Positions 5,347-21,080 of a DNA stretch of 64,000 nucleotides are shown here, in pieces. The translations under genes and the position numbers were made by a program. Each line of letters begins with the position of its first letter. Positions within the stretch are counted from its first letter, which is position 1. Below the pieces are notes generated by a model. That model did not search any database, was not told where the DNA came from, and saw nothing but the letters and a program-made list of their open reading frames with translations. The DNA is from Candidatus Poribacteria bacterium (GTDB taxonomy: Bacteria > Poribacteria > WGA-4E > WGA-3G), in the NCBI GenBank assembly GCA_028821605.1, contig JAPPFM010000059.1, positions 124,001-188,000 of the forward strand, in the 5' to 3' direction.

Positions 5347-5877
5347 TTAGAAAATGTCCAATTTTTCAAAGATATTTTGCCAACGTGCCAGATGATTCTC
5401 ATCTCTATGAACGGGAACAAACCCCAAGTTAAGATAATTCTTGATTGCAGGCAGACGAAAATCGTCCGTGTCTAACATGACATACGCCACATGCCGCGTT
5501 TTAAAATAGCGCAGGAGAAACACTGTCAGCCATTTTCCAAGTTTATGTCCGGTATGTTCTGGAAGCACAGCGAGCATATCAATGTAGCCGATCGGTTTGC
5601 CACGGTGACACCTATTCCAAGCACACGCCGTGCCAATAGGGACATCTCTGTGGACGGCGAAGCAGAATCCATCTGGATCAAAATTGGGTTGGTTGATAAC
5701 GTTAGCATAAGTATCTTCAGAGGTTCTGCCTTGGTCTACAAAGGTTCTATCCATTATTCGTGCCCAATAGACTTCATCCCCGCACTGATAGGTTCGGATA
5801 TGATAGCCATCAGGACACCGAAGCCTCGGTAGATTCTCCAAATCATACCGAGCCATTCTGAGTTGATCTTCCACCAT
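5347..5877 (-). CDS. GNAT-family N-acetyltransferase (downstream copy)
   Basis: A 176-residue single-domain GNAT protein. Motif A, the acetyl-CoA pyrophosphate-binding turn, is AVLPEHTGHKLGKWL; the following helix and LDTDDFRLPAIKNYLNLGFVP form motif B with the usual NLGF ending. It transfers an acetyl group from acetyl-CoA to an amine; the substrate cannot be told. It is clearly paralogous to the protein encoded just upstream (5881-6477): both share EHTGHKLGKW, MLDTDDFR and YLNLGFVPV. Three bases separate it from that gene, and its stop abuts the glycosyltransferase start, so the three form one transcription unit. A tandem duplication with later divergence explains the pair. Confidence 0.8.
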   Translation of the reverse strand: MVEDQLRMARYDLENLPRLRCPDGYHIRTYQCGDEVYWARIMDRTFVDQGRTSEDTYANVINQPNFDPDGFCFAVHRDVPIGTACAWNRCHRGKPIGYIDMLAVLPEHTGHKLGKWLTVFLLRYFKTRHVAYVMLDTDDFRLPAIKNYLNLGFVPVHRDENHLARWQNIFEKLDIF

Positions 5878-5880
5878 ATA

Positions 5881-6477
5881 TTAACGTGAAACTTTCGTCC
5901 ACAGTTCCTCAGGGAGCGTTTCTCTAACGTTTGTGATTTCTTCTGACATAGAGGGCAGTCCAAGTTTCTCAAAAATCTTCCGCCATCGTTCCGGTTGTTC
6001 GTCTTCAACGTAAACAGGGACGAATCCCAGATTCAGATAGGTCTTTACAGCAGGGATACGAAAATCGTCGGTATCCAGCATTGCACTTATGAATCCGTTA
6101 TCGCGGAAGTACGTGAGAACAGCGAGCGAAACCCATTTTCCGAGTTTATGTCCGGTGTGTTCAGCGACAACGCCTACCATGTGCACATATCCGACATCCT
6201 TTTCATCTACAGATTCCCGCCACGCACAGGCAGTCCCAACAGGCGTGTCGTGATACGTTGCGAAGTAGAGTCCGTCAGGGAGAAATACGTCTCTGCCAGT
6301 AATTTCGTTCCTCGTATCCTGCGCGGTGCGTTTTCTGCCACCGAACGAGTCGCTGATGATATTTGCCCAGTGCCCCTCGTCACCCTTTTGATAGGTTCTC
6401 ATGCTGTAGCCTGCCGGAAGTTCTAACTCTGGTAAATCTTCCAGATTGGGACGTACCATTCTAAGTTGTCGTGGCAT
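5881..6477 (-). CDS. GNAT-family N-acetyltransferase (upstream copy)
   Basis: A 198-residue GNAT acetyltransferase, paralogue of the next gene. Acetyl-CoA-binding motif A is GVVAEHTGHKLGKWV and motif B ends in YLNLGFVPVYVE. It has about 20 extra C-terminal residues. The ATG at 6477 is preceded by GGAGAAAG, making this the first gene of the acetyltransferase-acetyltransferase-glycosyltransferase unit. The shared operon with a membrane GT-C enzyme suggests, without proof, modification of a sugar or a lipid-linked precursor. The upstream 256 bases hold a repeat element. Confidence 0.8.
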   Translation of the reverse strand: MPRQLRMVRPNLEDLPELELPAGYSMRTYQKGDEGHWANIISDSFGGRKRTAQDTRNEITGRDVFLPDGLYFATYHDTPVGTACAWRESVDEKDVGYVHMVGVVAEHTGHKLGKWVSLAVLTYFRDNGFISAMLDTDDFRIPAVKTYLNLGFVPVYVEDEQPERWRKIFEKLGLPSMSEEITNVRETLPEELWTKVSR

Positions 6478-8365: not shown

Positions 8366-8423
8366 TTTTGACCATCAACTCGCGCCTTATCAAAAGTATC
8401 TGTAGACGAGTTGATGGTCAAAG
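8366..8423. repeat. Hairpin repeat, family B (copy 1)
   Basis: TTTTGACCATCAACTCG at 8366-8382 pairs with CGAGTTGATGGTCAAAG at 8407-8423 over 16 bases around a 24-base loop. A diverged copy lies at 20995-21049. It follows aroB and is joined to a family A heptad remnant on its right. Confidence 0.7.
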
Positions 8424-8536: not shown

Positions 8537-9682
8537 ATGATAAAAACAACTCAATGGACAGTCGTCTGCTTGGTTTTGTGCCTAAGTGTTGGCACTGCGT
8601 TTAGCCAAGGGCTTAGCCCACCGGCAAACGTCACGGCAGTGGATACACCCAATGACGATGGCTCCAGTATCACCATCAAGTGGGACACAGCCCCCGAAGA
8701 TAGCGGTATCACAGGATATCAAATCCTGCGGCGGATAGCAGACGGCGATCTTGAAGAAATCGGTGAACTACTGCCTGCCGGAACAGCGACTTATGTCGAT
8801 TCCTCTATTGAAAAAGGGAACGCCTACGCCTACATTGTGCGCGCCGTTAGCGAGACAGAGGCAACAGTGGATTCCGAACAAACCGTCCCCGTCAAAGGAA
8901 CAGGGGAATGGTTTCATACCGGCAAAATCCCGCTGTTTATCGCCATGCTTCTCTTTGGTGCCGTTATTCTTTGGAATATCTATTATGCGCGGAGTGGTAA
9001 AGATATCTTCGTTCGGCGCATCCCTGGACTTGAGGCTGTAGATGAAGCCATCGGTAGAGCCACGGAGATGGGACGCTCTATTCTCTATACCTTAGGGTTA
9101 GGTCGCGTAGATGATGTCCCTACTATTGCGAGTATGACAATTCTGGGGCAAGTGGCACGGCGAACTGCCGATTATGAAACACCATTGCGTGTGCCTTGCC
9201 GGGATCCAATTGTTATGAATGTCGTGCGTGAGGTCGTGCGAACAGCATATCTTGATGAAGGTCGTCCGGATGTCTATAACGAGGAAAACGTTTTCTTTGT
9301 CAGTGAAAGCCAATTCGCCTACGCTGCTGGTGTGGATGGTATTATGCTTCGTGAAAAACCCGCGGCGATATTTTTACAAGGTCAATTTTTCGCTGAATCG
9401 CTTATTCTCGCGGAAACAGGCAATTCTATTGGTGCCATTCAGATTGCAGGAACAGACTCTGAGCACCAACTTCCGTTCTTTATCGCTGCATGCGACTATA
9501 CTTTAATTGGTGAAGAATTGTACGCAGCGAGTGCTTATCTGTCCAGAGAACCGATGTTACTTGGGAGTCTCAGAGGACAAGATTGGGGAAAGGTACTCAT
9601 TTTCATAACTATGATTCTGGGCGTGATTCTTGAGTTGTCCGGTGTCAATTGGATAACAACGCTCTTACAAAAGGTGAATTAG
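8537..9682 (+). CDS. Membrane protein with fibronectin type III domain, first gene of four-gene operon
   Basis: A signal peptide (residues 1-23, ending AFSQ) precedes one fibronectin type III domain (about 27-118; PPANVTAV, ITIKWDTAPEDSGITGYQILR, YAYIVRAV). A transmembrane segment follows (about 131-150), then a soluble domain of about 190 residues (DVPTIASMTILGQVARRTADYETPLRVP, FVSESQFAYAAGVDGIML, EKPAAIFLQGQFFAESLILAETG) and a second transmembrane segment near the C-terminus. With the FN3 domain outside, the large domain would be cytoplasmic. It resembles an uncharacterised family I recall as DUF6754, which I cannot confirm. It is the first of four tightly packed genes, with GAGG before the ATG. 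Likely the scaffold of a membrane complex; function unknown. Confidence 0.75.
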   Translation: MIKTTQWTVVCLVLCLSVGTAFSQGLSPPANVTAVDTPNDDGSSITIKWDTAPEDSGITGYQILRRIADGDLEEIGELLPAGTATYVDSSIEKGNAYAYIVRAVSETEATVDSEQTVPVKGTGEWFHTGKIPLFIAMLLFGAVILWNIYYARSGKDIFVRRIPGLEAVDEAIGRATEMGRSILYTLGLGRVDDVPTIASMTILGQVARRTADYETPLRVPCRDPIVMNVVREVVRTAYLDEGRPDVYNEENVFFVSESQFAYAAGVDGIMLREKPAAIFLQGQFFAESLILAETGNSIGAIQIAGTDSEHQLPFFIAACDYTLIGEELYAASAYLSREPMLLGSLRGQDWGKVLIFITMILGVILELSGVNWITTLLQKVN

Positions 9683-9690
9683 GGGGATTT

Positions 9691-10311
9691 ATGAAAAGAC
9701 AAGTACCTTTAGTGCTCTGTTTTCTTTTTGGCGTTGCGACAATTCTGACCCGATTTAGTCCACACCCCTATTCTCAATTCTTTTACGAAGAGGTGAATAG
9801 TTGGGTACTCATTATTACGCCTTTCGCATTGGTCTTGGCGACAGTGACACTTATCCGCGCGCATGTGACACGTATTCGTCGGCGTACAGAGTATTGGCGA
9901 TACAGTTTTATTGTCTTCGTCGGCATTATCATAATGGTTGTCATAGGGGTACCCTTTGGACCGCAGCATTCTGTGTTTGAATGGTTATTCAACAACGTTC
10001 AAGTGCCGATGGAGGCCACTATGTTTTCACTCTTAGCCTTCTTTATTGCATCGGCGGCATATCGAGCATTTCGTGCTCGCTCATTTGAGGCGACCCTACT
10101 CCTTGTCACTGCGATTATTGTCATGCTGGGGAATGTCCCAGTTGGAGACTTAATTTGGAGTGAGACATCAAGTATGAAACAGTGGATCTTAAATAACCCG
10201 AACCTTTCAGCAAGGCGGGGAATTATACTCGGAGTGAGTTTAGGTGTAATTTCGCAATCCATCCGAATTATACTCGGAATTGAACGCTCGTACTTAGGGG
10301 GAGGAGATTAA
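9691..10311 (+). CDS. Six-TM membrane protein, second gene of the operon
   Basis: A 206-residue integral membrane protein with six predicted hydrophobic segments, beginning at VPLVLCFLFGVATIL, then WVLIITPFALVLATVTLI, FIVFVGIIIMVVIGV, TMFSLLAFFIASAA, LLLVTAIIVMLGNV and GIILGVSLGVISQSI. The loops are short and no catalytic motif is recognised. The reading frame is open from a TTG at 9649 inside the previous gene, but ATG 9691 has an excellent ribosome site (AGGGGGATTT) and lies eight bases after that gene's stop. Three bases separate its stop from the next gene. It may form a channel or anchor with its operon partners; function unknown. Confidence 0.72.
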   Translation: MKRQVPLVLCFLFGVATILTRFSPHPYSQFFYEEVNSWVLIITPFALVLATVTLIRAHVTRIRRRTEYWRYSFIVFVGIIIMVVIGVPFGPQHSVFEWLFNNVQVPMEATMFSLLAFFIASAAYRAFRARSFEATLLLVTAIIVMLGNVPVGDLIWSETSSMKQWILNNPNLSARRGIILGVSLGVISQSIRIILGIERSYLGGGD

Positions 10312-10314
10312 CAG

Positions 10315-11130
10315 ATGCTTGATAAATTGATGAACATGGACAGGCGAGTGGTCTTTATTCTCGTTGCCCTTGCAGTTATCATCCCGACGAAACTACAGGT
10401 GAATTTACCCATTTCGGTCTCTGAACCCACACAGCAGCTCTACGATTATATTGATAATTTAGAAGCAGATTCAACCATCATGATTGCATTTGATTATGGG
10501 CCTGCAGGTCTACCGGAACTCCATCCGATGGGGAGGGCCGTCCTCAAACAGTGCTTTGATAAAGGTGTCCGTGTTATTGGTGTCACATTAGCTCCCGATG
10601 GGCCCACCTTAGCAAATACACTGATGGAAGAAATTGCCCAAGAGAGCGGAGCCACGGCTGGCGAAGATTATGTTTTCCTGGGCTACCGACCCGGAGGTGT
10701 ACTGGTTATGCTTGGAATGGGAACCAATATCGCCGATGTTTTTGAAAGTGACTACAACGGAACAGCACTTGCTGAAATTCCGATAATGGAAAACATCACA
10801 AACTACGACCAAATCTCTCTTCTGGTGGACTTCGCTTCTGGCAGCACCACAGAGCAATGGATCAATTATGCGAACACACAATACAATTTACAAGTCGCTG
10901 CAGGTGTCACCGGGGTTATTATAGCGCAGATGTATCCGTTCCTGCAAACCGGACAATTGGTAGGCTTAATAGCAGGTATTGCGGGAGCTGCTGAGTATGA
11001 ACGCCTCATAGATGCTCCGGCAAAAGGAATGCAGTGGATTAATATTGAATCGTTTGTGCATCTATTGATTGTCGGTTTAGTCATTCTTGGTAATATCACA
11101 TTCTTCATTCGGAACCGGCAAGAGGAGTAA
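10315..11130 (+). CDS. Membrane-anchored alpha/beta-domain protein, third gene of the operon
   Basis: A short N-terminal transmembrane segment (VVFILVALAVIIPTKL) precedes an alpha/beta domain of about 150 residues: STIMIAFDYGPAGLPELHPM, GVRVIGVTLAPDGP, GEDYVFLGYRPGGVLVMLGM and ISLLVDFASGSTTEQW. Two later hydrophobic segments follow (VGLIAGIAGAAEY region and HLLIVGLVILGNITFF). The alternating strand-helix pattern resembles a Rossmann-like or solute-binding fold, but no known family is recognised. The ribosome site GGGGGAGGAG lies in the last codons of the preceding gene. Being soluble in the middle, this is the likely ligand-handling or enzymatic member of the complex; this is inference only. 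Confidence 0.72.
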   Translation: MLDKLMNMDRRVVFILVALAVIIPTKLQVNLPISVSEPTQQLYDYIDNLEADSTIMIAFDYGPAGLPELHPMGRAVLKQCFDKGVRVIGVTLAPDGPTLANTLMEEIAQESGATAGEDYVFLGYRPGGVLVMLGMGTNIADVFESDYNGTALAEIPIMENITNYDQISLLVDFASGSTTEQWINYANTQYNLQVAAGVTGVIIAQMYPFLQTGQLVGLIAGIAGAAEYERLIDAPAKGMQWINIESFVHLLIVGLVILGNITFFIRNRQEE

Positions 11131-11134
11131 ATTT

Positions 11135-11809
11135 ATGGAAATTTTTGGCATCTGGCTCGCGGCGTTTTTGACGTTGTCCATTTACAGTTTCCTTTACCGA
11201 GATAATCCATTCTATCGGTTTGCTGAATATCTTTTTATAGGAATATCAGTTGGATACTACATCGTTATTTACATTCACCAAGGCTTTATCCCATTTGCTT
11301 GGGAGCCATTTTGGGCGGCGGTTAAACCTTTCTGGCCAGGAATCCCTCGAGAAGCCGGCTGGATAGGATTGATAAAATTGATTCCAATAGCACTGGGACT
11401 TTTGTTCTTTGGTGGTTTGTCTCCGCGGCACACATGGCTGATTCGCTATCCGAGTGCTGTTCTTGTCGGGTTTGGATCAGGAATCTCCATTCCACTGATG
11501 TTACAGACATTTATTTTCGCGCAGACACGCGGAACGGTTGAACCTTTTGGGGGCATCCATGCTGGGACCGTCACTGGCTGGGGCATTCTTGAGGCAGGAC
11601 TCATGCTTGCTGGGGTTGTTTGTACACTCACCTATTTCTTCTTCTCGGTAGAACACCGAGGTCCGATCAATTGGCTTTCAAAAGTTGGTATTGCCTTTCT
11701 CATGATCGGGTTCGGTGCTGCATTTGGAAACACCGTTATGGGCCGTGTTGCGCTCCTCATTCAACGTGTTGACTTCTTGCTAAACACTTGGCTCGGTGCA
11801 ATCTTTTGA
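11135..11809 (+). CDS. Six-TM membrane protein, last gene of the operon
   Basis: A 224-residue membrane protein with about six hydrophobic segments (IFGIWLAAFLTLSIYSFLY, FIGISVGYYIVIYIHQGF, LIPIALGLLFFGGL, AVLVGFGSGISIPLMLQ, GLMLAGVVCTLTYFFF and IAFLMIGFGAAFGNTV). The frame opens earlier at 11087, but ATG 11135, five bases after the previous stop with AGAGGAG ahead, is the true start. FGSGISIPLMLQ and FGAAFGNTVMG are glycine-rich and could be helix-packing segments. No homology to a known transporter is recognised. It ends the operon; the next 162 bases are non-coding repeat. Confidence 0.72.
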   Translation: MEIFGIWLAAFLTLSIYSFLYRDNPFYRFAEYLFIGISVGYYIVIYIHQGFIPFAWEPFWAAVKPFWPGIPREAGWIGLIKLIPIALGLLFFGGLSPRHTWLIRYPSAVLVGFGSGISIPLMLQTFIFAQTRGTVEPFGGIHAGTVTGWGILEAGLMLAGVVCTLTYFFFSVEHRGPINWLSKVGIAFLMIGFGAAFGNTVMGRVALLIQRVDFLLNTWLGAIF

Positions 11810-20949: not shown

Positions 20950-21080
20950 GCTGTCGGCTCTCGGGTGCCAGCAGTCAATAAAGAGGGTGTGTGGTTTTGA
21001 CCATCCACTCGTACCTTTGTAAATGCGGAAGCCGAGTTAATGATCAAACGGAAACCTCTCCTACCGATAGCCGAAAACTA
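20950..21080. repeat. Composite repeat: family A arms around a family B hairpin
   Basis: CTGTCGGCTCTCGG on the left and TACCGATAGCCGAAAAC on the right are inverted family A arms. Between AAGAGG and CCTCTC sits a diverged family B hairpin: TTTTGACCATCCACTCG (20995-21011) against CGAGTTAATGATCAAAC (21033-21049). It separates the NfeD and FloA genes. Confidence 0.6.

Follow-up and report, generated by a model that had tools for sequence, protein, structure and literature searches.

What kind of system is encoded by four closely packed genes for membrane proteins in the genome of a Candidatus Poribacteria bacterium? The question is raised by a 64,000-nucleotide stretch of DNA (hereafter, the window; contig JAPPFM010000059.1, positions 124,001 to 188,000) from a 5.99 Mb assembly (contig C59 of genome G000), which contains the following four open reading frames, here called A to D:

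8537-9682, + strand: gene A, open reading frame of 381 amino acids (aa)
9691-10311, + strand: gene B, open reading frame of 206 aa
10315-11130, + strand: gene C, open reading frame of 271 aa
11135-11809, + strand: gene D, open reading frame of 224 aa

The genes are co-directional and separated by 8 (A/B), 3 (B/C), and 4 (C/D) bases, in agreement with an earlier note that had read them from the sequence as one operon with 3-8 base gaps. That note had also described strong ribosome-binding sites, and Shine-Dalgarno-like stretches are indeed present 5′ of B (GGGGGA), C (GGGGGAGGAG), and D (AGAGGAG), whereas the one 5′ of A is weaker. Comparison across genomes gives good support to the prediction that A-D are subunits of a single membrane complex, as the note had proposed.

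The four-gene arrangement is far beyond chance. Of the 128 A genes whose contigs run far enough downstream, 122 are followed by B, C, and D in that order, and 131 complete ABCD units were recovered in 103 loci. The six exceptions include at least two true orphan A genes (L089 and L116), while duplication, disruption, or open reading frame calling seems to account for the others. Of 85 Poribacteria genomes, the 82 that contain A are exactly those that contain C. D is also found in 82, counting G017, where a fragment of only 22 residues points to a gap in the assembly (91% complete, in 910 contigs). Another genome lacks D where its contig stops inside C (G033), and the only genomes without any of A, C, or D are 79% and 64% complete. 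Scattered homologues, which the note had named as grounds for refutation, are rare, and the proposal survives this test.

A genome scan confirmed at least 532 relatives beyond Poribacteria. Phylum labels, read from the best 80 of these, number about 15 and include WOR-3/Stahlbacteria, Zixibacteria, Latescibacterota, Armatimonadota, Coatesbacteria, Edwardsbacteria, Cloacimonadota, Aegiribacteria/Fermentibacteria, CSSED10-310, Eisenbacteria, TA06, Planctomycetota, and others; the labels are those of the submitters, and some metagenome-assembled genomes (MAGs) may be mislabelled. Gene order is invariant across phyla. Of 101 Armatimonadota genomes drawn, 88 carry A and 89 carry C, and the two genes are absent together (Fisher p = 6e-12, a value overstated by the relatedness of the genomes). 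No relative was found in viral contigs, phages, or plasmids, and a mobile or phage system was rejected on these grounds; a defence system was likewise set aside, as PADLOC returned no match.

Duplicated copies provide a further view of the same unit. Many genomes carry two or three ABCD copies, in tandem or apart, and the distance matrices of the genes correlate at 0.73-0.89 across the 131 units. At multi-copy loci, A and each of B, C, and D have their nearest relatives in one and the same unit 35-37 times out of 37, compared with about 15 expected by chance. Because paralogues pair unit by unit, ABCD is duplicated and kept whole, as obligate partners are. In three Armatimonadota loci (L192, L193, and L194) A is itself doubled, giving sm154-A-A-B-C-D (sm154 is described below), as if A formed a heterodimer there.

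Protein A consists of a signal peptide, an FN3-like extracytoplasmic domain, a transmembrane (TM) segment, a Rossmann-like DUF6754 domain of 200 residues, and a C-terminal TM segment. The earlier note had recognised the TM and FN3-like parts, the latter only a weak match (E = 6e-4, under the Pfam cut-off), but had overlooked the main part of the protein, which aligns to Pfam PF20539 (DUF6754) over model positions 3-256 of 257 with E = 1.2e-121 and 405 bits, far above the curated cut-off of 27. The domain is predicted by AlphaFold2 to have an alpha/beta Rossmann-like fold (predicted local distance difference test score, pLDDT, ~97; 94-sequence alignment) and is placed on the cytosolic side by hydropathy and the positive-inside rule, with positive residues following the TM segment. 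Independently of that rule, the LysM repeats fused to the N-terminus of one paralogue (L047) place the N-terminal part outside, in the cell wall. This outer region is highly variable, being absent in many Armatimonadota and elsewhere FN3-like, LysM-bearing, or very long (L093), in contrast to the rigidly conserved cytosolic domain.

B and D are integral membrane proteins with conserved motifs (AFFIASAAYRAFRAR in B and SFLYxDNPFYxFAEHLFVG in D). Of the two six-TM proteins in the note, hydropathy confirms six segments for D, while B has five and possibly a sixth. In three genomes of one genus (G032:C386, G034:C61, and G043:C1) the C-terminal part of D is internally repeated. C had been described as a membrane-anchored alpha/beta protein; it does contain an alpha/beta domain, but one flanked by TM segments at both ends rather than anchored at one. 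The domain is modelled as Rossmann-like (mean pLDDT 95.6, predicted TM-score 0.90; AlphaFold2, 88-sequence alignment) and is probably extracytoplasmic by the positive-inside rule. No solved structure significantly resembles A or C across the greater part of its length. Fold searches against the PDB returned only generic Rossmann-like domains, with low TM-scores for A (no hit reaching 1e-3, the best E being 3e-3; MthK RCK and SIS domains) and TM-scores of at most 0.43 for C (best E = 5e-4; glycosyltransferase-like domains among them). Searches of Pfam, NCBIfam, PHROGs, and PADLOC gave no hit above the cut-off for B, C, or D, and profile comparisons detected no shared origin of B with D or of A with C. 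These three genes are thus assigned to no family, whereas A carries a known domain of unknown function.

The proposal of a four-gene system also proved too narrow, as ABCD travels with three further genes: sm154; a PF13941 protein of the GlmL type, here called MutL, which is a predicted ASKHA (actin-fold) ATPase; and a 375-residue protein that we call barrelE. The order sm154-MutL-barrelE-A-B-C-D is found in Aegiribacteria, Fermentibacteria, CSSED10-310, Zipacnadia, some Armatimonadota, a Nitrospirae MAG, and two basal Poribacteria loci (L043 and L044), and in Armatimonadota sm154 usually lies immediately 5′ of A. In the genome of the window, these genes are located as follows:

C59:212810-213940: barrelE, 77 kb from ABCD
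C41:87187-88617: MutL, with a full-length PF13941 match (431 bits)
C10:311171-311437: sm154

BarrelE is highly conserved (mean column identity 60%) and weakly resembles barrel-sandwich domains (RnfC_N, E = 3e-4 to 1e-3; NQRA_N, E = 0.008); profiles of A, C, and barrelE had nothing significant among PDB chain sequences. Of 35 ABCD genomes sampled from other phyla than Poribacteria, 34 carry it, as do 76 of the 85 Poribacteria and 93 of the 101 Armatimonadota. In the Armatimonadota, A and barrelE are jointly missing from seven genomes (Fisher p = 7.5e-7, again overstated by relatedness). MutL exceeds the Pfam cut-off in 76 of the 85 Poribacteria, and sm154 is present in 38 of 40 genomes. Both the phosphate-1 and phosphate-2 ASKHA motifs are intact in all 21 MutL sequences inspected, including that of the window's genome. 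In four phyla (Cloacimonadota, Aegiribacteria, CSSED10-310, and Fermentibacteria), a second MutL and a barrelE domain are joined end to end in single proteins of 909-1007 aa:

L179:5847-8867: MutL-barrelE fusion
L180:1277-4168: MutL-barrelE fusion
L182:1502-4228: MutL-barrelE fusion
L183:3806-6769: MutL-barrelE fusion

Because such natural fusion proteins exist, MutL and barrelE likely work together. In three further basal Poribacteria loci (L163, L164, and L165), sm154-MutL-barrelE follows gapA-pgk-tpiA-secG and a small uncharacterised membrane protein. TonB/ExbBD and TonB-receptor genes were considered as additional members and rejected, since the operon is followed by them only at certain loci of Aegiribacteria, Fermentibacteria, and Stahlbacteria.

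Gene order, co-occurrence, and fusion together make it a well-supported prediction that an A-D complex works with MutL and barrelE. In the model that we favour, at a probability of roughly one half, A-D form an inner-membrane complex that is coupled through barrelE to the MutL-type ATPase and carries out assembly or transport in the envelope. B and D would be the membrane core, from which A would extend outward through its FN3-like domains (LysM in the one paralogue) and inward through DUF6754, while C would add another Rossmann-like domain, this one facing outward. BarrelE may adapt the MutL/GlmL-type ATPase to the cytosolic DUF6754 face of A, such that ATPase cycles, relayed through barrelE and A to the outer domains, would drive assembly or transport. 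By analogy, the ATPase would act on a membrane platform as PilM or FtsA does. That the complex assembles or transports, and does not sense, is a guess that draws on the actin-fold ATPase, the presence of two multi-TM subunits, and the fusion to LysM. With about even confidence, we extend this view to a seven-protein envelope machine (A-D, sm154, MutL, and barrelE) that would be a near-universal core component of Poribacteria, Armatimonadota, and many candidate phyla of the Fibrobacteres-Chlorobi-Bacteroidetes (FCB) type, unrelated to known transporter, secretion, or motility systems.

Several observations weigh against this model. In most Poribacteria, including the genome of the window, MutL, barrelE, and sm154 lie far from ABCD, which weakens the link between the complex and its proposed partners, and barrelE occurs without a detected A in 6 of the 101 Armatimonadota. 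The sole characterised relative of MutL is a mutase-reactivating chaperone and not a motor. No substrate-specific gene consistently adjoins the operon. Finally, members of the unit do occur alone: besides the orphan A genes, about two in number, a few genomes from the window's genus contain orphan C copies. Two of these (L151:724-3616 and L152:2-2589) adjoin an STT3 oligosaccharyltransferase-type gene (Pfam match for L151), while those in L150, L153, and L155 have different neighbours.

One alternative, which we consider unlikely, is that A-D form a sensor or receptor in which the outer FN3 or LysM domains and C sense the envelope and DUF6754 binds a nucleotide-type ligand and signals to MutL and barrelE. 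The contrast between the variable outer part of A and its rigid cytosolic domain would fit such a receptor, diverged tandem copies would suit several specificities, and the MthK RCK gating domain is among the best, though not significant, fold matches of A. However, kinase, cyclase, receiver, and regulator genes are not recurrent beside the operon in our list of recurrent neighbours, and a receptor needs fewer than two multi-TM proteins.

MutL and barrelE could instead be independent housekeeping proteins, for example a pair reactivating a cobalamin-dependent mutase, leaving A-D alone as a complex and an ordinary uncharacterised transporter. GlmL, whose family includes MutL, is described as a chaperone that reactivates glutamate mutase (PMC4682846), and the partner ATPase shares with it a full PF13941 domain as well as the ASKHA motifs. 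Both genes are also unlinked from ABCD in core Poribacteria, and in basal genomes they follow gapA-pgk-tpiA-secG. On the other hand, the seven-gene order recurs in several phyla, barrelE is nearly constant in the sampled ABCD genomes, and it is co-absent with A in Armatimonadota. The MutL of one representative locus (L090) scores 223 bits, far under the cut-off of 475 for the GlmL equivalog (NF040745), and unlike GlmL the partner ATPase is ~150 residues longer and linked or fused to barrelE. No B12-dependent mutase genes were among the recurrent neighbours of the operon, a list made without a search aimed at B12 domains. A literature search found no paper on PF13941, and a match to a Dictyoglomus MutL proved to be a mismatch-repair protein. 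We regard this explanation as a minority possibility.

A distant, degenerate relative of the Rnf/Nqr redox ion pumps, in which barrelE would stand for RnfC/NqrA, B and D for the six-TM pair, and C for the anchored RnfG/NqrC, is suggested by the weak RnfC_N and NQRA_N similarity of barrelE and by superficially alike topologies with two multi-TM subunits. This idea is largely refuted and very improbable: B and D, between which no shared origin was detected, have no Rnf-Nqr match (RnfA/RnfE or NqrD/NqrE) in Pfam or NCBIfam, Rnf has no MutL-type ATPase, and conserved cysteines are absent from B, C, D, barrelE, and sm154, with a single one in A, which leaves no iron-sulphur ligands. That A-D are ordinary operon neighbours of unrelated function, co-transcribed for convenience, is most improbable, for although each gene is unremarkable alone and aroK-aroB adjoins the operon in the window's genus, the invariant order across phyla and the co-absence speak against it, and the unit-wise inheritance of paralogues contradicts it.

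The preferred model, an ATPase-coupled envelope machine, finds its closest functional parallel in the type IV pilus PilM-N-O-P assembly and the GspL-GspM pair of the type II secretion system, in which a soluble protein of the actin-fold ATPase family sits at an inner-membrane platform of several proteins. The resemblance is one of working only, as A-D match none of the platform families, MutL compares to FtsA at E = 0.12, and the membrane proteins here are multi-TM. We know of no system under which the ABCD complex could be filed. The PF20539 entry covers the domain of A but is silent on B, C, D, MutL, and barrelE, and a literature search found no paper mentioning DUF6754 or PF20539.

In the window, aroK and aroB are encoded upstream of A, and a TIM-barrel gene and a sulfatase gene are found downstream of D. 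Promoter and terminator scans near the operon gave scores no better than shuffled sequences. Two other features were recorded:

8367-8422, no strand assigned: perfect 16-bp inverted repeat (TTTGACCATCAACTCG) between aroB and A
5347-6477, - strand: two adjacent, related GNAT acetyltransferase genes, a local duplication

A degenerate copy of the inverted repeat occurs 12 kb from the first, at 20996-21048. The repeat at 8367-8422 probably terminates the aroK-aroB transcript or is a dispersed hairpin element, and does not belong to the complex.

The ABCD complex has had neither a name nor a function, and our literature search returned no paper on it; with the MutL-type ATPase, barrelE, and sm154 attached to it, what was one DUF entry becomes a defined seven-gene set. 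Since the complex is near-universal in the sampled Poribacteria and Armatimonadota and is spread over about a dozen candidate phyla, it probably does something basic in their envelopes. Armatimonadota includes cultivated species, and the question is therefore accessible to experiment.

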